The notes beneath the pieces are model-generated. The model had not been told where the DNA came from. It was given only the letters and a program-made list of their open reading frames with translations, and ran no database searches. A stretch of DNA of 64,000 nt from Prauserella flavalba (lineage in GTDB: Bacteria > Actinomycetota > Actinomycetes > Mycobacteriales > Pseudonocardiaceae). Location of the stretch: NCBI RefSeq assembly GCF_003202235.1, contig NZ_MASU01000007.1:310001-374000 (forward strand), in the 5' to 3' direction. The translations under genes and the position numbers were made by a program. This document shows, piece after piece, positions 1 to 15,931 of this stretch (position 1 is the stretch's first letter; each line of letters begins with the position of its first letter).

Positions 1-94
1 TCGCGAGCCCGGACGCGGTGGTGCCCGACCAGAGTCGCAGGAACGACGTGTCGCGCAGGACGGATCGGCTCGGGGCGCCGGCTGTCTGTGTCAC
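1..94 (-). CDS. MFS transporter, 5' end only (putative metallophore exporter)
   Basis: This is the N-terminal 31 codons of a gene that runs off the left edge. It starts at GTG (94-92) behind a GGAGGA ribosome site. The visible protein contains RDTSFLRLWSGTTASGLA, the typical opening of a 12-helix MFS drug/siderophore exporter, where an arginine-aspartate pair and FxxLW precede helix 1. It diverges from the FecCD permease gene, and a Zur-type box lies between them, so exporter and importer would share control. The family call rests on about 30 residues. The export role is inferred from context only. Confidence 0.55.
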   Translation of the reverse strand, partial: MTQTAGAPSRSVLRDTSFLRLWSGTTASGLA

Positions 95-145
95 GGGGCG
101 GTAACTCCTCCGGGGTCTCGCTCATTCTGGCACGCACAGGCTAGA

Positions 146-160
146 CGAAAATGGTTTTCA
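146..160. promoter_or_regulatory. Zur-type operator
   Basis: The sequence CGAAAATGGTTTTCA has perfect GAAAA and TTTTC arms around TGG. It differs at two positions from the TGAAAATGATTTTCA type of zinc-uptake regulator (Zur) box I recall from actinomycetes. It is a conspicuously AT-rich island, 52 bases from the MFS start and 63 bases from the permease start, so one bound dimer could repress both directions. It does not resemble the IdeR iron box found at 54295. The metal is inferred from the box type, not shown. Confidence 0.65.
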
Positions 161-222
161 TTTGTAGTATCGGCTGCCGCCGGGTGACGACCATCCGGGA
201 AACGTCCACTGTGGAGGGTCGT

Positions 223-1302
223 GTGACCGTGACGGAGGCGGCGCCCGAGGTCGCGCCGCCGGACAGCCCCCGCGCGCGAGGCCTGCTCACCGTGGTGGCG
301 CTCGTGCTCGTGCTGGTGACGTCGGTGATCGCCGGCATCTCGCTCGGCCCCGCCGTGGTCCCCCTGCCCGACACGCTGCGCTACCTTGGGGCCGCGCTCA
401 CGGGCGGCACGATCGGGCCGGGCGACGTGACGGGCTACTCGATCATCTGGCAGGTCCGCACACCGAGGGTGCTGCTCGCGGTGGTGGTCGGCGCCGGGCT
501 GAGCGTCATCGGCGTCGCCGTGCAGGCGATGGTGCGCAACGCGCTCGCCGATCCGTTCATCCTCGGGGTTTCGTCGGGGGCGTCGGTGGGTGCGAGCGCG
601 GTCGTGTCGTTCGGGCTGTTCGCTGGCCTCGGGATCTACGCGCTGTCGGCGGCCGCGTTCCTCGGCGCGCTCGCGGCGTCCGTTCTGGTGTACGTCGCCG
701 CGCACGGCAGGGCGGGGCTCACCCCGCTGCGGCTCGTGCTCACCGGCGTGGCGCTGGCCCATGGGTTCCAGGCGCTGATGAGCGTGATCGTGTTCTTCGC
801 GCCGTTCGGCGAGGCCGCGCGCTCGGTGCTGTTCTGGCTGCTCGGCAGCCTCGGCGGGGCGGCGTGGGGCTCGCTGCCCATCGCCGCGGTGACCGTCGCC
901 GTGGCGATCGTGGTGTTGCTGCGGCAGTCCAGCGCGCTGGACGTGCTGGCGATGGGCGACGAGTCCGCGGCGAGCCTCGGGGTCGACGCCGCCGCCGTGC
1001 GCCGCAGGCTGTTCCTGCTCACCGCTGTGGTGACGGGCGCGCTGGTCGCGGTCAGCGGCGCGGTCGGCTTCGTCGGGCTCGTCATGCCGCATCTGGTGCG
1101 CATCCTGGTCGGTGCGAGCCACCGCAGGGTCCTGGTGATCGCCCCGCTCGCCGGTGCGATCTTCCTGGTGTGGGTGGATCTCGCCTCCCGCACCCTGTTC
1201 GCGCCGCGCGAGCTGCCGCTGGGCGTGATCACGGCGCTCATCGGCGTGCCGGTGTTCGTGACGCTGCTGCGCCGCCGCGGTTATCTCTTCGGAGGCCGCT
1301 GA
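223..1302 (+). CDS. FecCD-family metal-chelate ABC transporter permease
   Basis: This is a 359-residue polytopic membrane protein of the BtuC/FecCD family. It forms the channel through which a metal-chelate is imported. The family's RTPRVLLAVVVGAGLSVIGVAVQ segment lies near residue 90, followed by NALADPFILGVSSGA, and GLVMPHLVRILVG occurs toward the C-terminus. I chose the GTG at 223 because GGAGGG lies just upstream; an ATG at 151 would extend the protein through the Zur box. The ATPase gene starts one base after the stop. There is only one permease gene, so a homodimer is expected. Confidence 0.9.
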   Translation: MTVTEAAPEVAPPDSPRARGLLTVVALVLVLVTSVIAGISLGPAVVPLPDTLRYLGAALTGGTIGPGDVTGYSIIWQVRTPRVLLAVVVGAGLSVIGVAVQAMVRNALADPFILGVSSGASVGASAVVSFGLFAGLGIYALSAAAFLGALAASVLVYVAAHGRAGLTPLRLVLTGVALAHGFQALMSVIVFFAPFGEAARSVLFWLLGSLGGAAWGSLPIAAVTVAVAIVVLLRQSSALDVLAMGDESAASLGVDAAAVRRRLFLLTAVVTGALVAVSGAVGFVGLVMPHLVRILVGASHRRVLVIAPLAGAIFLVWVDLASRTLFAPRELPLGVITALIGVPVFVTLLRRRGYLFGGR

Positions 1303-1303
1303 G

Positions 1304-2065
1304 ATGGAGCTGACCCTCGACGCGGTCTCGGTGGAGATCGCGGGCACCCGGCTGATCGACGAGCTGAGCCTCAAGGCAGGCGACGGCGAGGTGGTGGGAC
1401 TCGTCGGCCCGAACGGCAGCGGCAAGTCCACCGCGCTGCGCTGCGTCTACCGCGCACTGCGGCCGAGCTCGGGTGCCGTGCTCGTGGACGGCACCGACCT
1501 CGCCACACTGTCCATTCGCGACAGTGCGCGCTCGGTCGCGGCGCTCACCCAGGACAGCACCGCCGACCTGGACTTCACCGTCGCCGAGGTGGTGGCGCTC
1601 GGCCGGTTCCCGCACCAGCGCGGCAACCCGGTGCTGAGCGAGCGCGAACGGGAACTGTGTGCCGAGGCGATGCGGCGCACCGGCGTCACCCATCTCGCGC
1701 GGCGCGGAGTGCTCTCACTGTCCGGCGGGGAACGCCAGCGCGTGCTCATCGCCCGCGCTCTGGTGCAGGAGCCCCGGCTGCTCGTACTCGACGAGCCCAC
1801 CAACCACCTCGACGTGCGGCACCAGGTGGAGCTGCTCGCGTTCCTGCGCGACTGCGGGCTCACCGTGCTCGTCGCGCTGCACGACCTGAACCTCGCCGCG
1901 TCGACCTGCGACCGGCTCGCCGTGCTGCACAACGGAAAGCTCGTCGAGACCGGGCCACCGGCCGACGTGCTGACGCCCGAGCTGGTCCAGCGCGTGTTCG
2001 GCGTGACGCCCACCGTGGTGCGTCATCCGGGCACCGGCGTTCCCCAGCTGCTCTACACCCTCTGA
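1304..2065 (+). CDS. ABC transporter ATP-binding protein (FecE/BtuD type)
   Basis: This 253-residue cytoplasmic ATPase energises the preceding permease. Walker A GPNGSGKST is at residues 35-43, the ABC signature LSGGE at 139-143, Walker B LLVLDEP follows near 160, and the H-loop histidine sits in ALHDLNLA. Length and motif spacing are those of siderophore/cobalamin importers. It starts one base after the permease stop, so translation is probably coupled. Together with the permease and lipoprotein it completes an importer, unlike the operon at 54 kb, which has no ATPase gene. Confidence 0.92.
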   Translation: MELTLDAVSVEIAGTRLIDELSLKAGDGEVVGLVGPNGSGKSTALRCVYRALRPSSGAVLVDGTDLATLSIRDSARSVAALTQDSTADLDFTVAEVVALGRFPHQRGNPVLSERERELCAEAMRRTGVTHLARRGVLSLSGGERQRVLIARALVQEPRLLVLDEPTNHLDVRHQVELLAFLRDCGLTVLVALHDLNLAASTCDRLAVLHNGKLVETGPPADVLTPELVQRVFGVTPTVVRHPGTGVPQLLYTL

Positions 2066-2091
2066 GTCCCCGACAAGGAAGGCCCGTCCCC

Positions 2092-3084
2092 GTGAACCGG
2101 CTCCCCACCGCGTTACCCGCGCTGCTCGCCGTCTGCCTGCTCGTCACCGCGTGCGGCGCCGACGTCGCCCCGCAGGCACAGCAGGGCCCGAAGCCCGTGA
2201 CCATCGAGAACTGCGGCGAGCGGATCACCTATCCGCGGCCGGAGCGCGCGGTCGCCTACGACATGAGCAGCACCGAGAAGATGTTCGCGCTCGGGCTGGC
2301 CGACCGCATGCGCGGCATCGTCATGCCCAGCACCGCCGACCCCGCCGTCGAACGATCCCCGTACCTCGAGGACTACCGGTCGGTGGAGACGCTCTCCACC
2401 GACGTGCTGAGCTTCGAGACGGTGGTCGCCGCCGAGGCCGACTGGGTGCTGGCGGGCTGGAACTCCGGGTTCAGCGAGGAGCGGGGCATCACGCCCGCCC
2501 GGCTCGACGAGGTCGGCATCCGCAGCTACCAGCACACGGAGAGCTGCTTCAACTACGGCGACCGGCCCGTGAAGGTACCCCCGCTGGAGGCGCTCTACAC
2601 GGATCTGCGCCAGATCGGGCAGATCTTCGGCGTCTCCGGCAAGGCGGAGCGGCTCGTCGCCGACCTCCAAGCTCGGGCGTCCACTTTGGAGGAGAACCGG
2701 CCGCAGGGCGAGCCCGCGCGGGTGTTCATCTACGACTCCGGCACCGACCAGCCCTTCACCTCCGGAGGGCAGGGCGCTCCCGACGTGATCGTCTCGCTCG
2801 CCGGCGGGCGCAACATCTTCGGCGATCTCGCCGAACGCTGGACCACGGTCGGGTGGGAACCGGTGGTCGAGGCGCAGCCCGAGGTGATCGCCGTGGTCGA
2901 CTACGGCGACCAGCCGGTGCAGGAGAAGATCGCCTTCCTCAAGTCGTTCCCGCCGCTCGCCGACTCCCCCGCCGTGCGGAACGACCGCTTCCACGTCCTC
3001 GACTACGGCGAGGCCGTGAGCGGTCCCCGCAACCTCGACGCCGCCGAGAAGCTGGCCACATACCTCCGTTCCCTCGGCCGCTGA
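2092..3084 (+). CDS. Metal-chelate binding lipoprotein (FecB/BtuF type)
   Basis: This 330-residue protein has a lipoprotein signal: a short basic start, a leucine/alanine-rich stretch, and the lipobox LVTAC with Cys near residue 21. The GTG at 2092 follows AAGGAAGG. The mature part is a class III solute-binding protein, with two lobes joined by a long helix, that would sit on the outer face of the membrane and deliver a metal-chelate to the permease. PRPERAVAYDMSSTEKMFALG is the family's first strand-helix unit. An unusual CFNYG segment near residue 150 may belong to the binding pocket; that is a guess. The ligand is unknown. Confidence 0.88.
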   Translation: MNRLPTALPALLAVCLLVTACGADVAPQAQQGPKPVTIENCGERITYPRPERAVAYDMSSTEKMFALGLADRMRGIVMPSTADPAVERSPYLEDYRSVETLSTDVLSFETVVAAEADWVLAGWNSGFSEERGITPARLDEVGIRSYQHTESCFNYGDRPVKVPPLEALYTDLRQIGQIFGVSGKAERLVADLQARASTLEENRPQGEPARVFIYDSGTDQPFTSGGQGAPDVIVSLAGGRNIFGDLAERWTTVGWEPVVEAQPEVIAVVDYGDQPVQEKIAFLKSFPPLADSPAVRNDRFHVLDYGEAVSGPRNLDAAEKLATYLRSLGR

Positions 3085-3105
3085 CCCATCAAGAGGAGCC
3101 CTGTC

Positions 3106-3819
3106 TTGGACACGATCGACCGGCTGCCGCCGCCGCTGCCCGCCGAGCAGATCATCGCGCTGAACCAGCCGAAGGCCGACCTGCACACCCTCCGGTCCTA
3201 CGAGTGGAACGGGTGGACGTTCGACGTGCCGCCAGGCGTGTTCCTGCCTGGGGCCACGAGCCGCATGATCCACGAGCGGGTCCTCGACGGGCGCATCGAG
3301 GTGCGCGGCCGCCGCTACGCCGCGATGGGAACGGGCCTCGGGGTGGAGGCCGTCGCCGCGGCGGCTCGCGGCGCGCGGTCGGTCCACGCCTTCGACGTCC
3401 ACGCCGAGAGCGTCGCCACCACCGAGCGGCACTACCGGCGCCTCGCCGGGAGCCCGGAGGGCACGACGTTCACCGGCGTGGTGGCCGACGTGTTCGACGG
3501 CTTCGACGGCGGTCCGTTCGACGTGGTGACGTTCAACCCGCCCGCGGTGAGCCGGACCGTGAGCGACGACCCGGACGTGGTGCGCAACGTGTGTGTCGGC
3601 GCGAGCCTGCTCGAACGGTTCTTCCGCCAGCTCGCCGAGCGTGACCTGCTGGCGCCGGGCGGCGAGGTGTACGTGATCGCGTCCAACACCGCCGACCTGC
3701 GCGGCATCGCAGGGCACGCCGTCGCCAACGGCTTCACCGTCGAGGTCGCGCACCGGCACGACTGGCAGGACGGTGTGCTCACCTACCTGTTCCGGCTCAC
3801 GCGGGGAGGCGGGGCATGA
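3106..3819 (+). CDS. Class I SAM-dependent small-molecule methyltransferase
   Basis: This is a 237-residue Rossmann methyltransferase. SAM motif I is MGTGLGVEAVAAAARGA (about 68-84), followed by an acidic strand AFDVH. The catalytic-type motif is FNPPAV, a relative of the NPPY motif of HemK/RsmC enzymes that methylate planar nitrogens. The start is TTG (3106) with AGAGGAG seven bases upstream. The gene lies between the uptake lipoprotein and the DUF364 gene, with an ATGA overlap downstream. I infer that it methylates the product of this locus rather than RNA or protein, because every neighbour is a small-molecule or transport gene. The substrate is unknown. Confidence 0.75.
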   Translation: MDTIDRLPPPLPAEQIIALNQPKADLHTLRSYEWNGWTFDVPPGVFLPGATSRMIHERVLDGRIEVRGRRYAAMGTGLGVEAVAAAARGARSVHAFDVHAESVATTERHYRRLAGSPEGTTFTGVVADVFDGFDGGPFDVVTFNPPAVSRTVSDDPDVVRNVCVGASLLERFFRQLAERDLLAPGGEVYVIASNTADLRGIAGHAVANGFTVEVAHRHDWQDGVLTYLFRLTRGGGA

Positions 3820-4631
3820 GCGTGGCCGAGCTGACGGCGGGCGTGCTGGCGGGCGAGACCGGCACCGCGCGGACCGCGCCCTCGGACCTGGTGGCCACGA
3901 GCGTGTTCTGGCTGCACCACGGCACGCGGCTGGCCGGAGGGCACACGACGTACCTCAACCAGTACGTGCTCGTGCGGGCCGGTGACGTGTTCGGTGCGTG
4001 CGCGTTCGAGCGGGGCGAGCTGGACCCTTCGGTGTGCGCCGAGCTGTCGGGCAGCACAATCGACGTCCTGTTGCGAGAGGGCCCGCCCGCCGTGCGGATC
4101 GCCGCGCTCGACGCCTACCTCGCCCACGACCGTCCACATCGGACCGATGAACGGGCCGAGCCGGTGCCGCTTCCGGCGGGAACCCCGGAGGTGCGCGCGG
4201 TAGCCAGGGACGCCGCGATCGCCGGGCTGCTCGACGTCTCCCCCGGCGCGAAGGTCGCACTCATCGGCGTGGTGAACCCGCTCGTCGCGGCGATCAGGGA
4301 ACGCGGCGCGGAATGCCTGCCGTGCGACCTCAACCTCCGGGCGACGCAGTGGGGCGACCCCGTGGCCCGCGACATGGCCGACGTGCTCGGCGCGGCCGAC
4401 GCCGTGGTGGCGACCGGGATGACGCTGAGCAACGGCACGTTCGACCACATCGTCGCCCACTGCCGCGAACGCGGCGTCCCGCTGGTCGTCTACGCGCAGA
4501 CCGGCAGCGCGGTCGCCAGGGCGTTCCTCGGCGCAGGGGTGGCCGCGCTGTCGGCGGAACCGTTCCCGTTCTCGCAGTTCAGCGCCGAGCCCACGACGCT
4601 GTACCGTTACCGCGCGAAAGGAGCCGTATGA
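3816..4631 (+). CDS. DUF4213/DUF364 (Rossmann-like, putative heavy-metal chelation) protein
   Basis: This 271-residue protein has the two-part layout of the DUF4213-DUF364 family. An N-terminal alpha/beta part contains GGHTTYLNQYVLV. The C-terminal Rossmann-like part contains VALIGVVNPLV, then ATGMTLSNGTFDHIV and the family's closing VVYAQTGSAV segment. The family is described as 'putative heavy-metal chelation' and its biochemical function is unsettled. ATGA overlaps join it to the methyltransferase (3816-3819) and to the kinase (4628-4631), so all three are almost certainly made together. Its presence supports a metal-related pathway. Confidence 0.75.
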   Translation: MSVAELTAGVLAGETGTARTAPSDLVATSVFWLHHGTRLAGGHTTYLNQYVLVRAGDVFGACAFERGELDPSVCAELSGSTIDVLLREGPPAVRIAALDAYLAHDRPHRTDERAEPVPLPAGTPEVRAVARDAAIAGLLDVSPGAKVALIGVVNPLVAAIRERGAECLPCDLNLRATQWGDPVARDMADVLGAADAVVATGMTLSNGTFDHIVAHCRERGVPLVVYAQTGSAVARAFLGAGVAALSAEPFPFSQFSAEPTTLYRYRAKGAV

Positions 4632-5620
4632 CGGTGGGCAGTGTCGGCCGCGGTCACGCGCCGGGCCACCACGGCGAGATCCTGCAGGGCGTGTTCCTCG
4701 ACGCGGCGGGCCGCCCCTGCCCCGGGCTCGTGACGCTGCCCATGTCGGGGCCCGGCACGCGCGCCGAGTTCACCCGGGCGCCGGGAGACAGGGTCACCGT
4801 GGAGCCGCGGGAGCGCACGAAGGCCGCGCGGGCCGCGACGCTCGCCGTCGCCGAGTGCGCGCGGCGGACCGGGCAGCCGCCCGGCGGGGGCGGGCTGCGC
4901 CTGCGCAGCGACCTCCCGGTCGGGCTCGGCATGGGCTCCTCCACCAGTGACGTGCTCGCCGCGGTGCGCGCCGTCGCCGCGAGTTACGACGTGACGCTGC
5001 CCGCCGCGGACCTCGCGCGGCTGGCCGTGCGCGCCGAGCAGGCGTGCGATCCGCTCATGCTCGACGGCAGGCCCCTGCTGTTCGCGCAGCGGGAGGGGCG
5101 GGTGCTGGAGGACCTGGGCGCCGCGCTGCCGCCCACGGTCGTCGTCGGCTGCCTCACCAGCGACGGAGCGCCCGTCGACACGCTCACACTGCCCCGCGCC
5201 GAGCACGACGTGCGCGCGTTCGAATGGCTGCGCGGGCTGCTGCGCCGTGCGATCGCCGAATCCGACGTGGCACTGCTGGGCCGGGTGAGCACGCAGAGCG
5301 CGCGGTACAACCAGCGCGTGCTCGCCAAGCCCGAGTTCGGGGTGCTGGAGCACATCGCCGAGCACACCGGCGCGGCGGGCGTCCAGGTGGCCCACAGCGG
5401 CAACGTCGCGGGCCTGCTGTTCGACGCGACCGCCCCCGGGCTCGCCCGCAGGCTGCGCCGGTGCGTGCGGGCGTTGCGCCGCAACGACATCACCGTCACC
5501 CGCATCTTCGGCACCCGGAACGGAGGGCGTGCATGGACGACCACATCGCCGACGCCATCGGCAGGCCGGACCTGGTGCGAGCCGGCGACGGTCTCGTCTG
5601 CCTTCGCTTCGAGACGATGA
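4628..5620 (+). CDS. GHMP-family kinase, PduX (L-threonine kinase)-like
   Basis: This 330-residue protein is a GHMP small-molecule kinase. GHHGEILQG (13-21) matches the PduX-type start of the fold, and PVGLGMGSSTS (97-107) is the phosphate-binding loop that precedes helix A. PduX phosphorylates the hydroxyl of L-threonine. Here a hydroxy-amino acid such as serine or threonine is the likely substrate, because the next gene is a PLP enzyme whose relatives use O-phosphoserine. The start is the ATG of an ATGA overlap. The reading frame continues 88 bases into the next gene, so the last 28 or so residues look like a non-family tail. Confidence 0.78.
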   Translation: MTVGSVGRGHAPGHHGEILQGVFLDAAGRPCPGLVTLPMSGPGTRAEFTRAPGDRVTVEPRERTKAARAATLAVAECARRTGQPPGGGGLRLRSDLPVGLGMGSSTSDVLAAVRAVAASYDVTLPAADLARLAVRAEQACDPLMLDGRPLLFAQREGRVLEDLGAALPPTVVVGCLTSDGAPVDTLTLPRAEHDVRAFEWLRGLLRRAIAESDVALLGRVSTQSARYNQRVLAKPEFGVLEHIAEHTGAAGVQVAHSGNVAGLLFDATAPGLARRLRRCVRALRRNDITVTRIFGTRNGGRAWTTTSPTPSAGRTWCEPATVSSAFASRR

Positions 5621-6525
5621 AGGTGGTCTCCGCGCTGGCCGCCGTCGAGCACCTGCTCGGCACGGGCGTGGTCCGGCGCGGGGACACGCTGCTCGACAGC
5701 TCCAGCGGCATCTACGCCTACGCACTCGCGCTGGCCTGCCACCGGCACGGGCTGCGCTGCCACATCGTCGGTTCGACGACGGTCGACGAGACACTGCGGG
5801 TGCAGCTCGCCGTGCTCGGCGCCCGGCTGGAGCAGATGCCGCCCTCGGCGGACCTCAAGCTCGACCAGAGCCGCCGCGTGCGCCGGGTCCGCGAGATCCT
5901 GCGGGACAACCCCGGCTACCACTGGATGCGGCAGTACCACGACGACGTCCACTACCTCGGCTACCGCGAGGTGGCGCACCGCATCGCGGGCGAGGTCGAC
6001 GGCCCGGTGACGGTCGTGGGCGGGGTCGGCTCGGGCGCGTCGAGCGGTGCGCTCGCGACGTACCTGCGGGACCGCCTGCCGAGCGTGGAGCTGGCCGGGG
6101 TGCAGCCCTTCGGCAGCGTCACCTTCGGCAGCGAGCACGTCGCCGATCCGGAGATCATCATCGCCGGAATCGGCAGCTCGATCCCGTTCGGCAACGTCCG
6201 CCACCGGCTCTACGACACGATCCACTGGATCGGCTTCGAGGCCGCGCTCGCGGGCAGCGTGCACCTGCTGCGCGAGCACGCCGTATTCGCCGGGCTCTCG
6301 ACCGGTGCCGCCTATCTCGCGGCCCGGTGGGAGCGGCGGCTGCGTCCGGATCGGACGGTGGTGTTCGTCGCCGCCGACACCGGTCACCGCTACGTCGGCA
6401 CGGTCTTCGCGCGGCACGCCGAGGCCCGCCCGGTGGCAGGGCTCGCGCCGCACGCGGTGACCGCGCGGGACGAGCTGGCGCTGCCGTGGTCACGCATGGC
6501 CTGGAACCGCGCGTCGTTCCCGTGA
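5533..6525 (+). CDS. Cysteine-synthase-like PLP-dependent enzyme (SbnA/AesA-like role proposed)
   Basis: This 330-residue fold-type II PLP enzyme is expected to carry out beta-replacement on an activated amino acid. Lys30 in FETMK replaces the usual SVKDR Schiff-base lysine motif. SSGIYAYALA replaces the TSGNTG substrate loop. GGVGSGASSG is the phosphate-binding glycine loop and GLSTGAAYLAAR matches the GISSGA region. The altered substrate loop argues against ordinary cysteine synthesis. The ATG at 5533 is preceded by CGGAGGG. Relatives in metallophore pathways (SbnA, AesA) join O-phosphoserine to an amino-acid nitrogen; the same is inferred here with the upstream kinase supplying the phosphate ester. 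Confidence 0.78.
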   Translation: MDDHIADAIGRPDLVRAGDGLVCLRFETMKVVSALAAVEHLLGTGVVRRGDTLLDSSSGIYAYALALACHRHGLRCHIVGSTTVDETLRVQLAVLGARLEQMPPSADLKLDQSRRVRRVREILRDNPGYHWMRQYHDDVHYLGYREVAHRIAGEVDGPVTVVGGVGSGASSGALATYLRDRLPSVELAGVQPFGSVTFGSEHVADPEIIIAGIGSSIPFGNVRHRLYDTIHWIGFEAALAGSVHLLREHAVFAGLSTGAAYLAARWERRLRPDRTVVFVAADTGHRYVGTVFARHAEARPVAGLAPHAVTARDELALPWSRMAWNRASFP

Positions 6526-6567: not shown

Positions 6568-7218
6568 GTGCGCGTGCTGGTCACGGAGGACGACGAGAAC
6601 CTCAGGGTGGCCGTCGAGGCGTCGCTGCGCGGCGCCGGCTTCGCCGTCGACGCCGCCACCGATCTTCCCGAGGCGGACGAGGCGCTGGCCGTCAACGCCT
6701 ACGACGGTGCCGTGTTCGACCGGATGCTGCCCTCGGGTGACGCGCTGGGGTACGTCGAACACCGCCGCCGCGCCGGCTGGTCCGTGCCCGTGCTGTTCCT
6801 GACCGCGCGGGACACGGTGACCGACCGGATCGCCGGGCTCCAGTGGGGTGACGACTACCTCGTGAAGCCGTTCGCCGTGGCCGAGCTCGTCGCACGGGTG
6901 CGAAGCCTGTGCCGCCGCGGCGCGACGCTGCCTGCGCCCGTGCTGCGATCCGGGGACCTCGAGCTCGACACGGGGCGGCACGAGGCGCGCCGCGCCGGCA
7001 CGCTGCTGAACCTCACCACCAAGGAGTTCCTGGTGCTGGAACGGCTGGTGGCCAACGGCGGGCCGGTGCCGAGGGCGGAGCTGATCGCCGCGGCCTGGGA
7101 CGAACTGGTGCCCCCCGCGTCGAACGTGCTGGACGTGCTCATCGCGCAGCTGCGCCGCAAGCTCGGACCGCCGCCGGTGCTGCACACCGTGCGCGGTGTC
7201 GGCTACGTGCTCAGGTGA
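6568..7218 (+). CDS. OmpR-family response regulator (orphan)
   Basis: This 216-residue protein has a receiver domain (1-118) and a winged-helix DNA-binding domain (125-216). The acidic pair is Glu7/Asp8-Asp9, the phospho-acceptor Asp51 lies in FDRMLP, switch Thr79 is in FLTARD, and the conserved lysine Lys100 is in LVKPF. The C-terminal domain ends with the VRGVGYVLR typical of OmpR/PhoB. No histidine kinase gene is adjacent, so its partner is elsewhere or it is an orphan. A TACCGT hexamer (6556-6561) lies seven bases before GTG 6568, suggesting a leaderless message. GTG 6574 is an alternative start with a better-spaced GGAGGGG. Confidence 0.88.
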   Translation: MRVLVTEDDENLRVAVEASLRGAGFAVDAATDLPEADEALAVNAYDGAVFDRMLPSGDALGYVEHRRRAGWSVPVLFLTARDTVTDRIAGLQWGDDYLVKPFAVAELVARVRSLCRRGATLPAPVLRSGDLELDTGRHEARRAGTLLNLTTKEFLVLERLVANGGPVPRAELIAAAWDELVPPASNVLDVLIAQLRRKLGPPPVLHTVRGVGYVLR

Positions 7219-7229
7219 GTGCCCCGACC

Positions 7230-7282
7230 GCAGTGAAGGCCACCATCACTGCATCTAACGCAGGCAAGGTGGCCCTCACTGC
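7230..7282. terminator. 53-bp nested palindrome (family copy A)
   Basis: This imperfect copy of the intergenic palindrome has a left half GCAGTGAAGGCC...CACTGC and a right half running to CCCTCACTGC around a short AT-containing centre. It sits exactly between convergent genes, the response regulator stop at 7218 and the ATPase stop at 7297, as expected of a bidirectional terminator. Several substitutions relative to the perfect copies suggest an older element. Confidence 0.6.
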
Positions 7283-7296
7283 GGATGGCTGGGCAC

Positions 7297-7734
7297 TCAG
7301 GAGGCGGCGCGGGCCGCGCGGGCCTGGGCCGGGAACACCGGCCGGTGCGACGGCGCGGTGAGGTCGAAGTCGGCGCGCACCGTGTGGCCCGTGCCGCCGT
7401 CGAGGCCGCTCACCGCCGCGAGGGCGCGGACCAGCTCGATTCCGCAGCGTTGCTCGGGTGTGCGCGCCGGAACCAGCATGGCGGGGTGGTCGAGCTCGAC
7501 GCGCAGGCGGCGGTCCGGCGCGTGGGACAGGCGCAGCCGCACGGGGCGGGAGGGGTCCGCCAGTGCCAGTGTGGCCAGTTCGTTGACCAGGAGCTGGGCG
7601 TCGGTCACGAGCTTGTCGTCGTACCGGGAGAGCATGGCCCGCACGCGATGCCGCAACGCCGGAAGATCACGTACGCGGGCCTCCTGCCAGCCGGTGTCGT
7701 CCACCGTCGGCCCCACCGCTTCTGACACTGTCAA
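7297..7734 (-). CDS. Anti-sigma-factor-type ATP-binding protein (RsbW-like, degenerate)
   Basis: This 145-residue protein matches the single-domain HATPase_c anti-sigma/serine-kinase family. LVNELATLALAD gives the N-box-like helix with its glutamate and asparagine. The usual G1 box (DxGxG) is replaced by VELDHPAMLVPA, so ATP binding may be weak. RCGIELVRALAAVSGLDG occupies the G2-side helix. Such proteins sequester sigma-B/F-type sigma factors or act as atypical anti-anti-sigma kinases. No sigma or antagonist gene is adjacent. A SigB-type promoter precedes it, hinting at feedback on the general stress response. Confidence 0.65.
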   Translation of the reverse strand: MTVSEAVGPTVDDTGWQEARVRDLPALRHRVRAMLSRYDDKLVTDAQLLVNELATLALADPSRPVRLRLSHAPDRRLRVELDHPAMLVPARTPEQRCGIELVRALAAVSGLDGGTGHTVRADFDLTAPSHRPVFPAQARAARAAS

Positions 7735-7772
7735 CCACCATCCGCTGTTTGCTCAACGTAGGAGAAGACGGG

Positions 7773-7798
7773 ATACCCCGTTCGGTTGATCGGCAAAC
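7773..7798 (-). promoter_or_regulatory. SigB/SigF-type promoter for the anti-sigma-like gene
   Basis: On the minus strand GTTT (7798-7795) is followed after 16 bases by GGGTAT (7778-7773). This matches the GTTT-N14-17-GGGTA(T/C) pattern of actinobacterial SigB/SigF promoters. The expected start point near 7765 leaves about 30 bases of leader before the ATG at 7734. Confidence 0.6.
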
Positions 7799-7817
7799 GC
7801 GAACCGTGAGACATCGG

Positions 7818-8750
7818 TCACGATTTCCGTTGCCGCTGGGGAACCACGACGTACTTGGGGTCCTTCGTGGACTCGACGCCCGCCTCGAAGATCCCGAACC
7901 GCTGCAGCGCGCTCCCGGCCAGCAGCGCCAGCCCGGACACCACGGCCGCCGCACGGCTGCGCCGGGCCGGCAGCAGCGCCCCGAGCGCGCCGCCGATCGT
8001 CAGGTACTCCGACCACTTCCGCAGCCGGTGTGCCTTCCCGGTGCGGTACGCCTCGCCCGCGAGCCCCGAGCGGTGCTCGACGAGCCGGGCCGCCACGCTC
8101 TCCAGCGCCGCCCCGGCGACGGCGAGCCTGCGCGCGGGCGCCGCCTCGCTCACCGGGGCGCACACCAGGCCGAGTCCCGCGCCCGCGGCCGCGGCGGAGC
8201 CGGTGAACACGAACGGAAGCTGCCGGTGCGCCTCGTGCCACGCCGGCACGGCCGTCTGCGAGAGCAGCACCGCCGTGTAGGACGCCACCGCGGGCGCGAC
8301 GGCCGCCGACGACAGCCCCGCCGGCCGCGCCAGGCGGCGCAGCAGCCGCGCGGGCAGCGTTTCCCGCACAGCACGTGGCACCAGCTCGGCGACGGCGGCC
8401 AGGCCGGTGCCCGGCCCGTAGGCGACGAGGATCCATGTGCCGACGCTCATCGGCGAGCTGGGTTTGGCCACCCGCAGCATGTGGTGGAAGCGCTCCGGCC
8501 TGCCCAGGTCCACGACCAGCAGGTACGTGCTCGCCATGAGCGCGCCGAGCGCACCGAGCCGCCCGGCCCTGCGCAGCGCGGGGCGTCCGGTCAGGTCGGC
8601 CCCGGCACCGAGCAGCGCCGAGCTCGCGGACACGCCGCCCGTGAACAGGTAGGCCGCGATCTTCCATTCCCACACCGGCGGTTTGAGCACCGGCCGCCCG
8701 TAGTACGACCGGAAGTCCGCCTCGGGCACCACGCTCTCCTGCTGCTTCAC
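7818..8750 (-). CDS. nrfD: NrfD/PsrC-type polysulfide-reductase-family membrane subunit
   Basis: This 310-residue integral membrane protein anchors the formate dehydrogenase and passes electrons to quinone. PVWEWKIAAYLFTGGVSA opens helix 1, and DLGRPERFHHMLRVAKPSSPMSVGTW carries the family's conserved loop before helix 3. About eight hydrophobic segments follow. The GTG start (8750-8748) overlaps the stop of the Fe-S subunit as GTGA, showing translational coupling. Since the alpha subunit lacks a twin-arginine signal, the catalytic face is probably cytoplasmic. Confidence 0.85.
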   Translation of the reverse strand: MKQQESVVPEADFRSYYGRPVLKPPVWEWKIAAYLFTGGVSASSALLGAGADLTGRPALRRAGRLGALGALMASTYLLVVDLGRPERFHHMLRVAKPSSPMSVGTWILVAYGPGTGLAAVAELVPRAVRETLPARLLRRLARPAGLSSAAVAPAVASYTAVLLSQTAVPAWHEAHRQLPFVFTGSAAAAGAGLGLVCAPVSEAAPARRLAVAGAALESVAARLVEHRSGLAGEAYRTGKAHRLRKWSEYLTIGGALGALLPARRSRAAAVVSGLALLAGSALQRFGIFEAGVESTKDPKYVVVPQRQRKS

Positions 8751-9649
8751 CGCGAGCCCCTTCCGAGGAACACCGACACCGCGGCGGCGGCGAGCGCCGA
8801 CGCCGCCAGGCCCGCGTGCTTCCACATCGACGGCGCGTCCCTCGTCGGCACCACGGGATCCGGTGGCAGGCCGTACACCTCGGGCTCGTCGAGCAGCAGG
8901 AAGAACGCGCCGTCGCCACCCACGCCGTCGTCCGGGCTCTCCCCGTACAGCCGCGCCTCGCTGACCCCGGCCTCGTGCAACGCGTCCACCCGCCGGGCCG
9001 CCCGCTCCCGCAGCTCGTCCAACGGTCCGAACTGGATCGAATCGGTCGGGCACGCCTTGGCGCACGCGGGTTCCAGCCCGTCACGCAGGCGGTCGTAGCA
9101 CAGCGTGCACTTCCACGCCCTGCCGTCGTCCTCGCGCCGGTCGATCACGCCGTACGGGCAGCCGGACACGCAGTAGCCACAACCGTTGCAGATGTCGGGC
9201 TGCACCACCACGCTGCCGTACTCGGTGCGGAAGAGGGCACCCGTCGGGCACACGTCGAGACAGCCGGCGTGCGTGCAGTGCTTGCAGACGTCGGAGCTCA
9301 TCAGCCACCGGAAGTCGGTGCGGCCCTCCTCGCCGGTGCCCGCACCGGGCAGGTCGAACGACGGCAGCCCGAGGTCCACCGCCTCCGCGCGGCGCGGCTC
9401 GGGCCGTGCTGGTTGCTCCACGAAGGTGACGTGGCGCCACGAGTTGGCGCCGAGCATGCCGGTGTTGTCGAACGACATGCCGAGCAGGTCGAACCCGTCG
9501 TCCGGTACACCGTTCCACTCCTTGCACGCCACCTCGCACGCCTTGCAGCCGATGCACACCGAGGTGTCGGTGAAGAACCCGACCCTCGGCGGGTGCTCGC
9601 CGTAGCCGGTGGCGGTCGCCGGGTCGGTGCGCGCGGCCTCGTCGGTCAT
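8747..9649 (-). CDS. fdhB: Formate dehydrogenase iron-sulfur (beta) subunit
   Basis: This 300-residue ferredoxin-like electron-transfer subunit has four cysteine clusters: CIGCKACEVACKEWN, CKHCTHAGCLDVCPTGAL, CNGCGYCVSGCPYGV, and CTLCYDRL...ACAKACPTDSI. Together these bind four [4Fe-4S] centres linking the molybdenum/tungsten site to the membrane subunit. A single hydrophobic helix near the C-terminus (HAGLAASALAAAAVSVFLG) would anchor it, as in FdnH/FdoH. The start ATG (9649) overlaps the alpha-subunit stop (ATGA), and its stop overlaps the NrfD start (GTGA). Confidence 0.92.
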   Translation of the reverse strand: MTDEAARTDPATATGYGEHPPRVGFFTDTSVCIGCKACEVACKEWNGVPDDGFDLLGMSFDNTGMLGANSWRHVTFVEQPARPEPRRAEAVDLGLPSFDLPGAGTGEEGRTDFRWLMSSDVCKHCTHAGCLDVCPTGALFRTEYGSVVVQPDICNGCGYCVSGCPYGVIDRREDDGRAWKCTLCYDRLRDGLEPACAKACPTDSIQFGPLDELRERAARRVDALHEAGVSEARLYGESPDDGVGGDGAFFLLLDEPEVYGLPPDPVVPTRDAPSMWKHAGLAASALAAAAVSVFLGRGSR

Positions 9650-12600
9650 CGGTCCTCCTCCCGGTGCGCGATGTCGTGCCGGGTGACGGTGTCGATCCGC
9701 GTCCCGGTCTCCGGCGTGACGCCGGCCCGCTTCCGGTACCCGGCGACGTAGTCGAGCAGCGCGGGCCCGCGCGGGCGCCTGCCCGGCCGGACGTCGCACG
9801 TCGCGACCTTGCTCTCCTGGATGAAGACGTTCGGGTCGAGCACCACGCCGATCAGGTCGTTCACCACGTCGCCGTCCACGAGCCCCGTGTGCCCCCAGTG
9901 GTACGGCATCCACACCTGATGCACCTCCCTGCCCTCGATCCGCAGCGGCCGCATCCGGTCGGTGACGAACACGCGCGCGTCCACGGCCGTCCTGCTGGTG
10001 ATCACGTGCGCCCAGCCGAGATGGGTGAGCCCGCGTTCGGCGGCGAGCCGGGGCGAGACCTCCATGAACAGCTCGGGCTGTAGCTCCGAGAGGTACGGCA
10101 GCTGCCTGCTCATGCCGCCCGCGGTGTGGTGCTCGGTGAGCCGCGCGGTGGTGAACACGTACGGGAACACCTCCCCGCCGCGCTCGGGCGGCGACGGGTT
10201 GGACGGGTTCTCCGCGCGGCCGTAGACGTTGCGCGCGGGGTTGCCCTGCTGGGCGTACAGCTGGTTGCGCACGGGCGACTCGTGCGGCTCGTAGTGTGTC
10301 GGCAGCGGGCCGTCCACGATGCCGTTGGGAGCGAACAGCCAGCCCTTGCCGTCGGCCTGCATGATGAACGGGTCGTCGCCGCTCAACGCGGCGGGGCCGA
10401 CGTCGTCGTCGCCGGGCCGGTAGTGCGGCGGCTTGTTCTTCTCGAAGTCCGGCACGTCGTGCCCGGTCCATTCGCCGCGCTCGGCGTCCCACCACACGAG
10501 CGCCTTGCGTTCGCTCCACGGCTTGCCGTCGAGGTCGGCGGAGGCCCGGTTGTACAGCACCCGCCGGTTCAGCGGCCACGTCCAGCCCCACTCGTTCTCG
10601 TAGGGTCCCTGCTCGTCGTGCGGTTTGCGGCGGGCGGCCTGGTTGACGCCGTCGGCGAACACTCCACTGTAGATCCAGCAGCCGCACGCGGTGGTGCCGT
10701 CGGCCCGCAGGTCGAGGTAGCCGCCGACCTCCCTGCCGGTGCGCAGGTCGATGCCGTTGATGCGGCGCAGCACGTCCTCGGCCGACGGTTCGTCGCCCTC
10801 CAGCTCGTAGTCCCACGCCAGGTCCAGCAGCGGGCGGTCGCGCTCGTCGGCGGAACCGGAGAGCTTCTCCCGGAGCAGGCGCCCGAGGTGGTAGATGAAC
10901 CACAGCTCCGAGCGCTGGTCGCCACGCGGCTCGACGGCCTTGTCCCGCCACTGCAGCATCCGCTGTGTCTGCGTGAACGTGCCCGCCTTCTCCACGTGTG
11001 AGGCGGCCGGGAAGAAGAACACCTCCGTGCGGCACCGCTCGGGCACGATCTCCCCGGTCTCGATCTCCGGCGAATCCTTCCAGAACTCCGCGCTCTCGAT
11101 CATCGCGAGGTCACGCACCACCAGCCAGTCCAGATTGGACATAGCAAGCCGTTGCAGCCGCCCGTGCGCGGAGCCGACGGCGGGGTTCTGCCCGAGCAGG
11201 AAGTAGCCGAACACCTTGCCGTCGAGCATGTCCAGCACCGTCCGGTAGGTGCCGTGGTCGCCGTTGATGCGCGGCAGGTAGTCGAAGCGGAAGTCGTTCT
11301 CCGGCGCCGCCGCCTCGCCCCAGTACTCCTTGAGCAGCGAGACGAGGTACGCGTCGGCGTTGCGCCAGAAGCCCTTCTGCCTGTCTCCCCTCACCTTGTG
11401 CAGGTAGCTCGGCAGGTCCTCGTGTGCGGTGTCCGGCATCGGCAGGTAGCCGGGCAGGAGGTTGAACAGCGTAGGGATGTCGGTGGAGCCCTGGATGCTC
11501 GCATGCCCGCGCAGCGCGAACACCCCGCCGCCGGGCCTGCCGATGTTGCCGAGCAGCAGCTGGATGATCGACCCAGCGCGGATGTACTGCGCGCCGAGGG
11601 TGTGCTGCGTCCAGCCGACGCTGTAGACGAGCGCGGCGGTGCGCTCCCGGCCCGAGTTGGCCGTCCACGCCCGGCACACGCGCAGGAACGTCTCCGCGGG
11701 CACGCCGCAGATCTCCTCGACGGCCTCGGGTGTGTAGCGCGCGAAGTGCCGCTTGAGGATCTGGAACACGCAGCGCGGATGCTTCAGCTCCGGGTCGGCC
11801 GCGATCTTGCGCGCGCCGCCCTCGAGTCCCGGCCCGCCGGAGCCCAGCTGGTCGGGCCTCGACTGCTCCTTGGCGCGGCTGCCGCCCTCGCCGGTGTCGG
11901 TCTGGCTCTCGTACCGCCAGGTCGTGTTGTCGTAGGAGGCGGTCTCCGGGTCGTAGCCGCTGAAGAGCCCGTCGAGATCCTCGGTGTCCTGGAAGCGCTC
12001 GTCGACGAGATACGGCGCGTTGGTGTAGGCGCGCACGTACTCCCGGAAGTCGAGGTCGTTCTGCAGGATGTGGTTGATCACGCCGCCGAGGAACGCGATG
12101 TCGGTGCCCGCGCGCAGCGGCACGTGCAGGTCGGCCATCGCGCTCGTGCGCGTGAACCTCGGGTCGATGTGGATCACCTCGGCGCCGCGTGCCTTGGCCT
12201 CCATCACCCATTGGAACCCGACCGGATGGGCTTCGGCCATGTTCGAGCCCATGATGACGATGAAGTCGGAGTTGGCGAGATCCTGCTGGTAGTCCGTCGC
12301 CCCGCCGCGACCGAAGGAGGCTCCCAGACCGGGAACCGTGGCGGAGTGTCAAATACGCGCCTGGTTCTCGATCTGGATGGCCCCGAGCGCGGTGAAGAGC
12401 TTCTTGATCAGGTAGTTCTCTTCGTTGTCGAGGGTCGCGCCGCCGAGGCTCGCGAAGCCCATCGTGCGGCGCAGGGGGTTGCCGTCCTCGTCGGCGTCCT
12501 GCCAGCCCTTGCGCCGCGCGTCGAGCACGCGGTCGGCCACCATGTCCATCGCCGTGCCGAGGTCGAGCTCCTGCCACTCGGTGCCGTACGGCGGCCGGTA

Positions 12601-12918
12601 GAGCACCCGCTCGGCCCGCTGCGGGCCGGTGACCAGCTGCTTGCTCGCGGAGCCCTTCGGGCACAGCCTGCCCCGCGAGATGGGGCTGCCGGGATTGCCC
12701 TCGATCTGGACGACGCGCTCGTCCCGGACGTAGACGTGCTGGGCGCAGCCGACCGCGCAGAACGGGCACACCGAGCCGACGACCCGGTCGGCTCCGGTGG
12801 TGCGCGGCGTGAGCGCGGCCGAGCGCCCCGACTGCGCGGCCCTGCCCCGGCCGGTGCGGTCACGTCCGGTCACCTGCCGGTACACGGGCCACGACCGGAT
12901 CCAGTCGGCCAGCCCCAT
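9646..12918 (-). CDS. fdhA: Formate dehydrogenase alpha subunit, selenocysteine-containing (TGA at 12349-12351 read as Sec)
   Basis: This is a 1090-residue molybdopterin oxidoreductase that oxidises formate to CO2. Cys51, 54, 58 and 86 (CPFCAVGC, then LCPKG) bind the first [4Fe-4S] cluster. The frame is interrupted once by TGA at codon 190. The flanks, ENQARI before and HSATVPGLGASFGRGG after, match E. coli FdnG exactly where it has selenocysteine (ARI-Sec-HGP, GRGA), and a SECIS-like hairpin follows. It should therefore be annotated as one CDS, not as two pseudogene fragments. The start ATG 12918 has GAGGAGG eight bases upstream. No twin-arginine signal is visible. No sel genes or tRNA-Sec are in the window. 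Confidence 0.9.
12319..12351 (-). promoter_or_regulatory. Selenocysteine UGA codon with bacterial SECIS hairpin
   Basis: The UGA occupies 12351-12349. Eleven bases downstream, GGTTCCC pairs with GGGAGCC (seven pairs, one G-U) around the five-base loop GGTCT. This is the same kind of GGUCU apical loop that SelB reads in E. coli fdhF. Position and loop fit a bacterial SECIS within the coding region. Confidence 0.8.
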
Positions 12919-13011
12919 ACTCACGTCCTCCTCACTCGCGGTAACGCGTTTCCCCGTGATCGCCGGTCCCAAACCCGGGTTGCCCTACGGCGTGCCGGGG
13001 AACACGGGGCC

Positions 13012-14643
13012 ATGCCCGACGCCTCGACATCCGGCAGACTGCGGCGCCTCGCAAGGGAGACCTTCGGCTGGCGCGACCTGAGGCCCGAGCAGCTCACGGC
13101 CATGCGGCACGTGCTCGATGGCGACGACGTGCTGGTGGTGATGCCGACCGGCTCCGGCAAGTCGGCGATCTACCAGCTGCCCACGATGCTCCTGCCAGGG
13201 CCGGCGATCGTGGTGTCGCCGCTGATCGCGCTGCAACGCGACCAGATCGGCAGCCTCGGCGAGGCCGGCGCGCCCGAGGCCGTCGCCGTGAACTCCGCCC
13301 AGGGCGCCCGGGACACCGAGGAGGCGTTCGAGGCGGCCACGGCTGGCGACGCGGAGTACCTGTTCCTCTCCCCCGAGCAGCTGGCCAAGGACGACGTGCT
13401 CGATCGACTCGCCGGCAGCGACCCCGCGTTGCTGGTTGTCGACGAGGCACACTGCGTCTCGGCGTGGGGGCACGACTTCCGGCCCGACTACCTGCGGCTT
13501 CGGCACGCCGCCGAGTACGTGGGCAGGCCGCCCGTGCTGGCGCTCACGGCCACCGCGGGCGGGCCGGTGCGCGATGACATCGTGGAGAAGCTCGGCCTGC
13601 GCGACCCGGCGCGGGTCGTCGCCGGCTTCGACCGGCCGAACCTGCACCTCGCGGCACGCGAGACCGCCGACGACGACAGCCGGGCCGGGACCGTCGCCGA
13701 GCACGTCGCCCGCGCCGCGAAGCCGGGCCTCGTCTACACGGCCACCCGCAGGGACACCGAACGGCTCGCGCGGCTGCTGCGCGCGCGGGACGTGCGCGCA
13801 GAGGCGTTCCACGCCGGCCTGCGCGCCCCCGAACGCGGGCGCGTCCAGGACGCCTTCATGGCGGGTGAGGTGGACGTGGTGGTGGCGACCTCGGCGTTCG
13901 GCATGGGCATCGACAAGCCCGACGTGCGCTTCGTCGTCCACGCGGCGCCGCCCGACTCGCTCGACTCCTACTACCAGCAGATCGGCCGTGCCGGGCGGGA
14001 CGGCGAGCCCGCGCACGCCCTACTGGTGCATCGTGGCGGGGACTTCGGCCTGCAGCGGTTCCTCACCTCCCGCTCGCTGGACGAGGACGCGGTCCGCGAG
14101 CTCGGCCGGGCGATCCGGCGGCACGAGGGACGGCTCCGCCCCGCCGATGCCGAGGCCGCGACCGGGCGGTCGCACCGCGCCGTGACCCGCGACCTCAACC
14201 TGCTCGAACAGGCCGGCGTCGTGCGCAGGACCCGGCGGGGCGAGCTGACGTGGGCGGGCGGGGACACCGACCCGGTGCGGGCCGCGGCGGAGGAGCTGGA
14301 GCGGCGGCAGCGGCTCGACCGTTCGCGCGTCGAGGTGCTGCGCGAGTACGCCGAGACCAGGACCTGCCGCAGGCGCTTCCTCCTCGGCTACTTCGGCCAG
14401 GATCTGCCGGGGCCGTGCGGGTTCTGCGACCGGTGCGACGAGGGCAGCGCCGCCGAGCACGCCCCCGCGGAGCACACGCGCGCGGAGTTCCCGCTGCGTT
14501 CCCGGGTCCGCCACCGCGAGTGGGGCGAGGGCAACGTGGTGACGCAGGCGGCCGACCGGATCACCGTGCTCTTCGACGACGCGGGCTACCGCACCCTCTC
14601 CCTCGCCGCCGTCCGCGAGCAGGGGCTGCTCACGCACGGGTGA
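13012..14643 (+). CDS. recQ: ATP-dependent DNA helicase RecQ
   Basis: This 543-residue superfamily 2 helicase unwinds recombination and fork-repair intermediates. FGWRDLRPEQLTAM is the RecQ motif 0, MPTGSGKSAIYQLP motif I, VVDEAHCVSAWGHDFRPDY motif II, and YYQQIGRAGRDG motif VI. The zinc-binding tail CRRRFLLGYFG...GPCGFCDRC follows. The C-terminus ends with an HREWGEGNVV...VLFDDAGYRTL segment in place of an HRDC domain, as in many actinobacterial RecQs. The ATG at 13012 was chosen because the RecQ homology begins about ten residues later. It is transcribed divergently from fdhA across 93 bases. Confidence 0.92.
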   Translation: MPDASTSGRLRRLARETFGWRDLRPEQLTAMRHVLDGDDVLVVMPTGSGKSAIYQLPTMLLPGPAIVVSPLIALQRDQIGSLGEAGAPEAVAVNSAQGARDTEEAFEAATAGDAEYLFLSPEQLAKDDVLDRLAGSDPALLVVDEAHCVSAWGHDFRPDYLRLRHAAEYVGRPPVLALTATAGGPVRDDIVEKLGLRDPARVVAGFDRPNLHLAARETADDDSRAGTVAEHVARAAKPGLVYTATRRDTERLARLLRARDVRAEAFHAGLRAPERGRVQDAFMAGEVDVVVATSAFGMGIDKPDVRFVVHAAPPDSLDSYYQQIGRAGRDGEPAHALLVHRGGDFGLQRFLTSRSLDEDAVRELGRAIRRHEGRLRPADAEAATGRSHRAVTRDLNLLEQAGVVRRTRRGELTWAGGDTDPVRAAAEELERRQRLDRSRVEVLREYAETRTCRRRFLLGYFGQDLPGPCGFCDRCDEGSAAEHAPAEHTRAEFPLRSRVRHREWGEGNVVTQAADRITVLFDDAGYRTLSLAAVREQGLLTHG

Positions 14644-14820
14644 ACCTCGGTTGACGGCCCGGCACCACGGGTAGGCCCTGCCCATGCTTGACACACCCCC
14701 CGACGATGGCGGCCTGCGGCCCGCCCTGACCGACCGCCCGAACCGCCCCGGCCACGACGGCCGGAACCAGCGCACCGTAACCGGGTGAGGCGGCTCGGCA
14801 CACAGGCGCGGCCGGGGTCT
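14644..14820. other. Intergenic gap with no recognised feature
   Basis: These 177 bases lie between the convergent recQ and enoyl-CoA hydratase genes. I see no convincing ORF and no copy of the 53-bp palindrome that ends several other convergent pairs here. Confidence 0.5.
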
Positions 14821-15885: not shown

Positions 15886-15931
15886 GCGGCGACTGTATCG
15901 TCGTGGCCGCCGCCGAGTCTGGGGAGACACA

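Follow-up and report, generated by a model that had tools for sequence, protein, structure and literature searches.

The first genes of a 64,000-nucleotide stretch of the Prauserella flavalba genome raise the question of how a small zinc chelator might be made with an enzyme set that does not match the known metallophore routes. The stretch, here called the window (contig NZ_MASU01000007.1, positions 310,001 to 374,000; G000:C7:310001-374000), comes from a genome of 8.09 Mb in 39 contigs. At its left edge is a gene cassette arranged as a divergon around a Zur-type palindrome, which occupies positions 1-6525 of the window plus an exporter gene that extends past the left edge. The genomic evidence makes it likely that this is a Zur-repressed zincophore cassette and that O-phosphoserine is the source of its product, an aminopolycarboxylate; its GHMP kinase would then act as SbnI does in staphyloferrin B precursor synthesis.

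Seven co-directional genes lie in the first 6.5 kb of the window and encode, by Pfam domain, a FecCD permease, ATPase, lipoprotein, methyltransferase, DUF364 protein, GHMP kinase and pyridoxal phosphate (PLP) enzyme (Table 1). The intergenic gaps from FecCD through the PLP gene are, in order, 1, 26, 21, -4, -4 and -88 bases, and therefore the seven genes are likely one operon. The kinase reading frame ends at 5620, overlapping the PLP gene, which corrects an earlier reading. The exporter gene, of the major facilitator superfamily (MFS), is on the minus strand; it begins at window position 94 and continues for a further 1,127 bases to the left of the window. In-frame starts for FecCD are found at 151, 184, 211, 223 and 229, the first of which would overlap the palindrome. 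The initial annotation described a divergent MFS exporter, a complete FecCD/ATPase/lipoprotein importer and four enzymes, with a box of the GAAAA-TGG-TTTTC type between the divergent transcripts; Pfam domains and the position of the palindrome bear out this description. As to the kinase, assignment to the GHMP family stands (PF00288), but the label PduX-like does not, as the libraries give weak matches only, e.g. to homoserine and mevalonate kinases.

Table 1. The divergon of the P. flavalba cassette, in window coordinates, with the evidence for each feature
Feature	Position	Strand	Evidence and remarks
MFS exporter, 5′ end (406 aa)	1-94; full gene L009:10874-12094 = G000:C7:308874-310094	-	MFS_1, E 1.2e-33; weak EntS match
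Zur-type 7-1-7 palindrome CGAAAATGGTTTTCA	146-160		Between MFS and FecCD; kept in relatives; motif also elsewhere in genome
FecCD permease	223-1302	+	PF01032, E 3.5e-83; GTG start at 223 chosen
ABC ATPase of FecCD importer	1304-2065	+	PF00005, E 1e-32
Substrate-binding lipoprotein (Peripla_BP_2)	2092-3084	+	PF01497, E 1.9e-17; VTAC lipobox in sequence
HemK2/PrmC-like N-methyltransferase (MTS-type), accessory	3106-3819	+	PF05175; FNPPA motif; predicted fold
DUF364 protein	3816-4631	+	PF04016, E 2.1e-12; predicted model, top fold 3l5o
GHMP-family small-molecule kinase	4628-5620	+	PF00288, E 1.8e-12 on 4628-5533; 3′ end overlaps PLP gene by 88 bases
SbnA/cysteine-synthase-like PLP enzyme (PALP)	5533-6525	+	PF00291, E 1.9e-33; best NCBIfam model SbnA

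The gene set recurs across the actinobacteria. Contigs were scanned with a DUF364 alignment query, and 80 loci of named species were analysed, which are the best 80 of at least 446 DUF364-encoding stretches (at least 595 stretches matched; one genome per species); the relatives kept are 68-78% identical. These loci are from Streptomyces (55), Nocardiopsis (6), Amycolatopsis (4) and twelve other groups, and span 14 named genera and one family-level metagenome-assembled genome. DUF364 is present in all 80 by construction, as the loci were chosen by it. The other cassette genes were scored by tblastn within 10 kb of DUF364, some contigs being shorter. The PLP enzyme is found in 79 loci, with the sole miss (L138) cut by a contig end. 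The kinase, counted in this way because the gene caller often missed the GHMP gene that overlaps the PLP gene, is found in 67 loci (65 at 100 bits or more), with two of the 67 matches being distant, divergently placed genes of 31-33% identity. The ATPase is scored in 77, a count that includes unrelated ABC proteins. The methyltransferase is present in 40; here too the count is from tblastn, since clustering of neighbours had merged ATPase and methyltransferase into one cluster. Transport genes travel with the enzymes: the FecCD permease is near in 71 loci and the substrate-binding protein (SBP) in 72, and the MFS exporter is of the window type in 65 and of a second type in 12, so that one or the other is found in 76.

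The tight packing of the enzyme genes is also retained. The DUF364-GHMP gap is -4 in 46 of 63 measured loci, the methyltransferase-DUF364 gap is -4 in 29 of 40, and the GHMP-PLP overlap is kept in 62 of 64. Query-free clustering of the called neighbours shows that cassette families are the only ones to reach ten or more genera, and among families present in at least eight loci a TauD-type protein comes next, with 14 loci from 4 genera. Four clusters that fall below ten genera were rejected as new core genes; among them are this TauD protein, the second type of MFS exporter and a called gene of 303 aa that, in L142, is antisense to the kinase gene. A response regulator 42 bases beyond the cassette end (6568-7218) was likewise rejected as a member, given that non-cassette families found in at least 8 of the 80 loci span at most four genera. 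The initial annotation had held that co-occurrence with cobalamin or cysteine biosynthesis instead of transport would speak against a metallophore. Such co-occurrence is not seen on the same four-genera measure, with no search by name made, and a role in cysteine or cobalamin synthesis was rejected.

A second sample consists of 200 genomes of the order, that of P. flavalba included. The PLP enzyme is found at 58% identity or more in 21 of these, and in 33 at E of 1e-30 or less. Twenty of the 21 loci were taken (G097 was left out), and 13 of them contain DUF364. Five loci (L082, L083, L084, L107 and L108) have a close FecCD importer and the PLP enzyme, with no DUF364, kinase or box. L083, the one domain-scanned among such loci, encodes an ATP-grasp amino-acid ligase and a different methyltransferase in addition to the FecCD importer and the PLP enzyme.

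Regulation by zinc is suggested by the palindrome. The box pattern used was the 7-1-7 palindrome TGAAAATNATTTTCA, which we take to be the actinobacterial Zur consensus, with a default limit of three mismatches. This pattern is found at 25 sites in the host genome, compared with 5 for a reversed control. The window box, CGAAAATGGTTTTCA, is one of four sites in the genome with two mismatches, and there is none with fewer. Gene surroundings were inspected for 15 of the 25 sites. At L117 the box is flanked on one side by the start of a CobW-type gene, past which is L31, and on the other by the coding part of L28, with S14 and S18 genes after it. In the available part of a review (PMC6103462), the Zur targets listed for Streptomyces coelicolor include a COG0523 gene and alternative ribosomal genes, and therefore the motif is one that marks Zur-type targets in the P. 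flavalba genome. Several of the other 14 inspected sites are intragenic or near genes with no clear zinc role, as expected from a loose pattern.

Among the 80 loci, a box with up to three mismatches is found in 64, and in 61 it adjoins a cassette gene, at -30 to 350 bases from the cassette start. At four mismatches, a level without a permuted control, the latter number is 71. The consensus of the 61 best boxes is TAATGAAAATSATTTTCATTA. By comparison, 102 of 104 permuted palindromes match no more than 8 of the 80 loci each; the remaining two match 65 and 39 loci, at the same sites in shifted register, since 81/83 and 51/53 of these matches, respectively, overlap a box of four or fewer mismatches. 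Conservation of the box in relatives exceeds chance. In the order sample, a box with up to three mismatches is by the exporter, importer, methyltransferase or DUF364 start in 12 of the 13 DUF364 loci, L076 being the exception. Absence of the box from homologous loci, which the initial annotation had named as counterevidence, is not seen as a rule. By its promoter palindrome, a candidate Zur site, the locus would belong to the actinobacterial Zur regulon.

The alternative that survives best is that the ligand serves another metal (nickel, cobalt, iron or copper), or that the box is bound by another regulator of the Fur family. FecCD importers serve many chelates, Fur-family boxes can resemble one another, and the boxes at these loci vary across species. 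What makes this unlikely is the consensus of the 61 boxes, together with the finding that the motif marks CobW and alternative ribosomal genes, which are Zur targets in the available text of PMC6103462.

Two other loci touch on the box. In the host genome, a Zur-type box with two mismatches at position 10295 of L216 (G000:C20:1-16000) lies 46 bases before a gene of 394 aa. Besides YcaO, the locus encodes peptidases of the S9 and S15 types, an ABC transporter and another FecCD/ATPase/SBP importer, and is possibly a Zur-linked azole-containing ribosomally synthesized and post-translationally modified peptide. In a relative, two box-like sites lie between the cassette and divergent genes for S-adenosylmethionine synthetase and a UbiE-like methyltransferase (L200:4862-6975), a possible sign of high demand for S-adenosylmethionine.

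For the PLP enzyme of the proposed zincophore pathway, the best curated NCBIfam model is SbnA (TIGR03945). A 20-ortholog profile was aligned with wild-type SbnA (5d84), and by a manual count of positions K30, R115 and Y135 fall on SbnA K47, R132 and Y152, while a glycine falls on S185; K30, R115 and Y135 are invariant in 20/20 orthologs. The Schiff-base lysine and two of the three phosphoserine-recognition residues of SbnA are thus kept; R132, Y152 and S185 are given as key to O-phosphoserine binding in the available part of PMC12414870. In a tree with a midpoint root only, the core PLP enzymes group in a single 100/100 clade, whose branch is 2.54 changes per column long. This clade is separate from SbnA, from cysteine-synthase-like rows and from the probable Aes enzyme of ethylenediaminedisuccinate (EDDS) synthesis. 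The rows nearest to it are seven of nine PLP enzymes from GHMP + PALP pairs, and the other two are elsewhere in the tree.

The kinase retains the glycine-rich loop GLGMGSSTSD and shares 48% identity, over 231 residues, with its counterpart in a GHMP + PALP pair of L093. DUF364 scores 47.4 bits against PF04016 (gathering threshold 23). Its AlphaFold model, made from 15 sequences, has a mean predicted local distance difference test score (pLDDT) of 92.4, and the top folds are 3l5o (E 7.9e-10) and 3npg, both DUF364 structures, which points to the same two-domain fold. The family was formerly linked to flavin or pterin synthesis, and no reaction is assigned to it in the structure titles or in the accessible part of PMC2954201, whereas here DUF364 is tied to a PLP enzyme/kinase pair and would be a core enzyme of the cassette, carrying out a conserved step. 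The methyltransferase model (pLDDT 90.2) is closest in fold to KMT9/HemK2 and to the carbamoyl N-methyltransferase Asc-Orf2, and the FNPPA motif is invariant in 20/20. A sequence search against solved structures gave only weak generic matches for kinase and methyltransferase, and for DUF364 alone two chance-like ones. DUF364 also occurs in a second context (L104, L105, L106 and L133-L135), where a DUF364 protein of 39-45% identity accompanies a PLP enzyme from a different clade; boxes are present in 4 of these 6 loci. L104, which alone of the six was domain-scanned, has in addition ATP-grasp, MR_MLE, MFS, methyltransferase and SBP_bac_5 domains.

The importer is less uniform. The FecCD match is under 60% identical to that of the window in 42 of 71 loci, and an SBP_bac_5 importer is near the cassette in 4 of 80; judged by these identities, the importer is of more than one lineage. 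Both FecCD and dipeptide-type importers serve opine-like zincophore clusters in actinobacteria (PMC7438024, in the portion available). The three importer parts of the window have as best NCBIfam matches 'putative F420-0 ABC transporter' models, all below cut-off (TIGR03868, 184.3 vs 392.4 bits; TIGR03869, 285.1 vs 437.35; TIGR03873, 277.4 vs 372.4).

These sub-cut-off matches, and the former link of DUF364 to flavin and pterin synthesis (PMC2954201, in part), can be read as signs that importer and enzymes serve a cofactor such as F420-0, a corrinoid or a pterin, and that no chelator is made. This is improbable, as a linked MFS exporter (76/80) and a Zur-type box are ill-suited to such a role, and no outside neighbour family present in at least eight loci reaches more than four genera.

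Perhaps, instead, the product is excreted as a zinc-stripping weapon or signal and the importer acts in salvage only. Excreted zinc-chelating aminopolycarboxylates do exist, e.g. aspergillomarasmine, and the importer type is more variable than the enzymes, but uptake would predict a nearby FecCD importer, which 71 of the 80 loci have, and we rate this reading slightly below the cofactor one.

The zincophore pathway itself may be outlined as follows, starting from what is directly observed, i.e. the gene content and its conservation, the conserved box and the conserved residues; from these we infer the product, the metal and the chemistry of DUF364. In low zinc, Zur would leave the site at 146-160 and both transcripts would start. 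The GHMP kinase would phosphorylate free L-serine (or L-threonine) to give O-phosphoserine. From the conserved residues, the PLP enzyme is predicted to form an aminoacrylate and add the amine of an amino acid to its beta carbon, yielding an N-(2-amino-2-carboxyethyl)-amino acid. This adduct would be retained as an aminopolycarboxylate ligand because the cassette has no SbnB-type dehydrogenase or lyase to split it: SbnB-like OCD and IucA queries each match 0 of the 80 loci, and an argininosuccinate-lyase-like query has no match in them. DUF364 would make a further, conserved change to the product, and the HemK-like methyltransferase may N-methylate it where the gene is present. In some species the product may be decorated by the methyltransferase, PhyH, TauD, a UbiE-like methyltransferase or GCS2; PhyH, TauD and UbiE-like genes are within 10 kb in 4, 14 and 3 of the 80 loci, respectively, and a GCS2 gene is found in L086 of the order sample. 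The MFS protein would export the ligand, and the FecCD/ATPase/lipoprotein system, or an SBP_bac_5 importer, would retrieve the metal complex.

The kinase is not found at 100 bits or more in 15 of the 80 loci. Its absence fits a supply of O-phosphoserine by the ordinary serine pathway, and there is a precedent in the kinase SbnI, which duplicates the phosphorylated serine pathway (PMC12414870, available part).

How does the cassette relate to known metallophore systems? To staphyloferrin B precursor synthesis it is linked by an SbnA-like PLP enzyme with the K47, R132 and Y152 equivalents and by a kinase in the same operon. It differs in that the kinase has the GHMP fold whereas SbnI is of the ParB type, and in that SbnB and IucA/C are missing. 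P. flavalba has a true SbnA (423.5 bits) at another place, L258 (G000:C17:9000-27000), with SbnB and an IucA/C-type synthetase, which is a separate siderophore locus of the non-ribosomal peptide synthetase (NRPS)-independent siderophore (NIS) type and has no box.

The initial annotation saw no NRPS, NIS synthetase, nicotianamine-synthase-like or opine dehydrogenase gene, and Pfam analysis of the cassette proteins agrees. No NRPS modules are found among these proteins, and adjoining called genes are of ordinary size save for one 787-aa call outside the scan. There is no IucA/IucC domain in the cassette, and the seven window proteins have no nicotianamine-synthase (CntL) or opine-dehydrogenase (CntM) domains, for which the 80 loci were not searched directly. 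Opine, NIS and NRPS routes were rejected. The opine zincophores staphylopine and pseudopaline resemble the proposed product in being small, amino-acid-derived and provided with dedicated export, and in actinobacteria in having FecCD or dipeptide-type import (PMC7438024, part available); they differ by the two synthesis domains just named.

The GHMP + PALP pairs, which are presumably of the DabC/DabA type known from peptide antibiotics, include the PLP enzymes nearest to the core clade and a kinase similar to that of the cassette, but those inspected (L087 and L089-L099) have no DUF364 or FecCD match and no box. Many are near genes for large proteins, and L093 has lyase and ATP-grasp genes.

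Two relatives in genus g4 have a separate operon that encodes OCD, Orn/Arg-type decarboxylase, PALP and MATE proteins, which are probably the aes genes for EDDS. In L256 (G069, 7348-12102) a box is located 52 bases before this operon, as identified by Pfam; in L257 (G076, 7209-16736) similar genes, assigned by likeness, are on one strand after an SBP_bac_5 importer that has its box at 16750. Operon and cassette both encode an SbnA-superfamily PALP enzyme and an exporter, but the operon has OCD, decarboxylase and MATE where the cassette has GHMP kinase, DUF364, MFS and FecCD. The OCD, decarboxylase and MATE queries match 0, 2 and 0 of the 80 loci, and Pfam finds none of the three in the seven window proteins. 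According to the available text of PMC4993170, EDDS from Amycolatopsis japonicum is a zincophore under Zur control whose synthesis uses neither an NRPS nor an NIS route. Despite this common logic (Zur box, SbnA-superfamily PALP enzyme, exporter, no NRPS or NIS), it is highly improbable that the cassette is the known aes cluster or a direct ortholog, and identity was rejected because OCD, decarboxylase and MATE are wanting and the PALP enzymes, 26-27% identical in partial alignments, are in different clades. As far as its genes can tell, the cassette would act like EDDS or staphyloferrin B precursor synthesis, yet it does not show the tested features of membership of either.

Several findings weigh against a Zur-controlled zincophore pathway as proposed. 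The PLP enzyme falls far short of the SbnA model (128.9 bits vs a cut-off of 349.95), and it has a glycine at the position of S185, one of the phosphoserine-recognition residues. The window's own box carries two mismatches, and 19 of the 80 loci have no box within the set limits (three mismatches); five of these are on pieces of less than 13 kb, and in L198, L200 and L203 boxes are present, but farther from the assigned starts. The seven order-sample loci in which the PLP enzyme occurs without DUF364 all lack a box. The importer is bound less tightly to the cassette than the enzymes are, with close relatives of the window proteins making up 29 of the 71 FecCD matches (60% identity or more) and 29 of the 72 SBP matches (50% or more). 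In addition, the 80 loci are the closest of at least 446, a non-random set with 55 from Streptomyces, in which near relatives are over-represented. Of 396 genomes sampled throughout the phylum, just 7, that of P. flavalba among them, have a DUF364 relative, and the cassette is therefore patchy. On balance, gene set, co-occurrence with transport genes and conservation of the box support, at the level of genomic inference, the idea in the initial annotation of a small amino-acid-derived chelator system for low zinc.

The gene set was not found described in the open-access full-text literature, to which coverage was limited, subscription papers and preprints being outside it; the description 'undescribed' is therefore provisional. 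It is about an even chance that the cassettes represent a widespread actinobacterial class of zincophores, consisting of beta-aminoalanine-linked aminopolycarboxylates made from O-phosphoserine. In such a class a GHMP serine kinase would replace SbnI, DUF364 would be the class-defining new catalytic step, and the products would be varied by swapped methyltransferase, dioxygenase, GCS2 or ATP-grasp accessories.

Elsewhere in the window, at 9646-12252 on the minus strand, is a gene for formate dehydrogenase whose frame crosses one TGA (12351-12349; ARI-stop-HSA), a feature also of selenocysteine enzymes.

If the proposed pathway is correct, and if all matched loci (at least 446) resemble the 80 examined, an overlooked zinc-scavenging pathway would be present in hundreds of actinobacterial species, and would explain zinc acquisition by many Streptomyces and Amycolatopsis relatives. 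It would also provide a first function for DUF364, for which structures have been available since 2010, and would point to new biodegradable chelators similar to ethylenediaminetetraacetate, and possibly to inhibitors of zinc enzymes.

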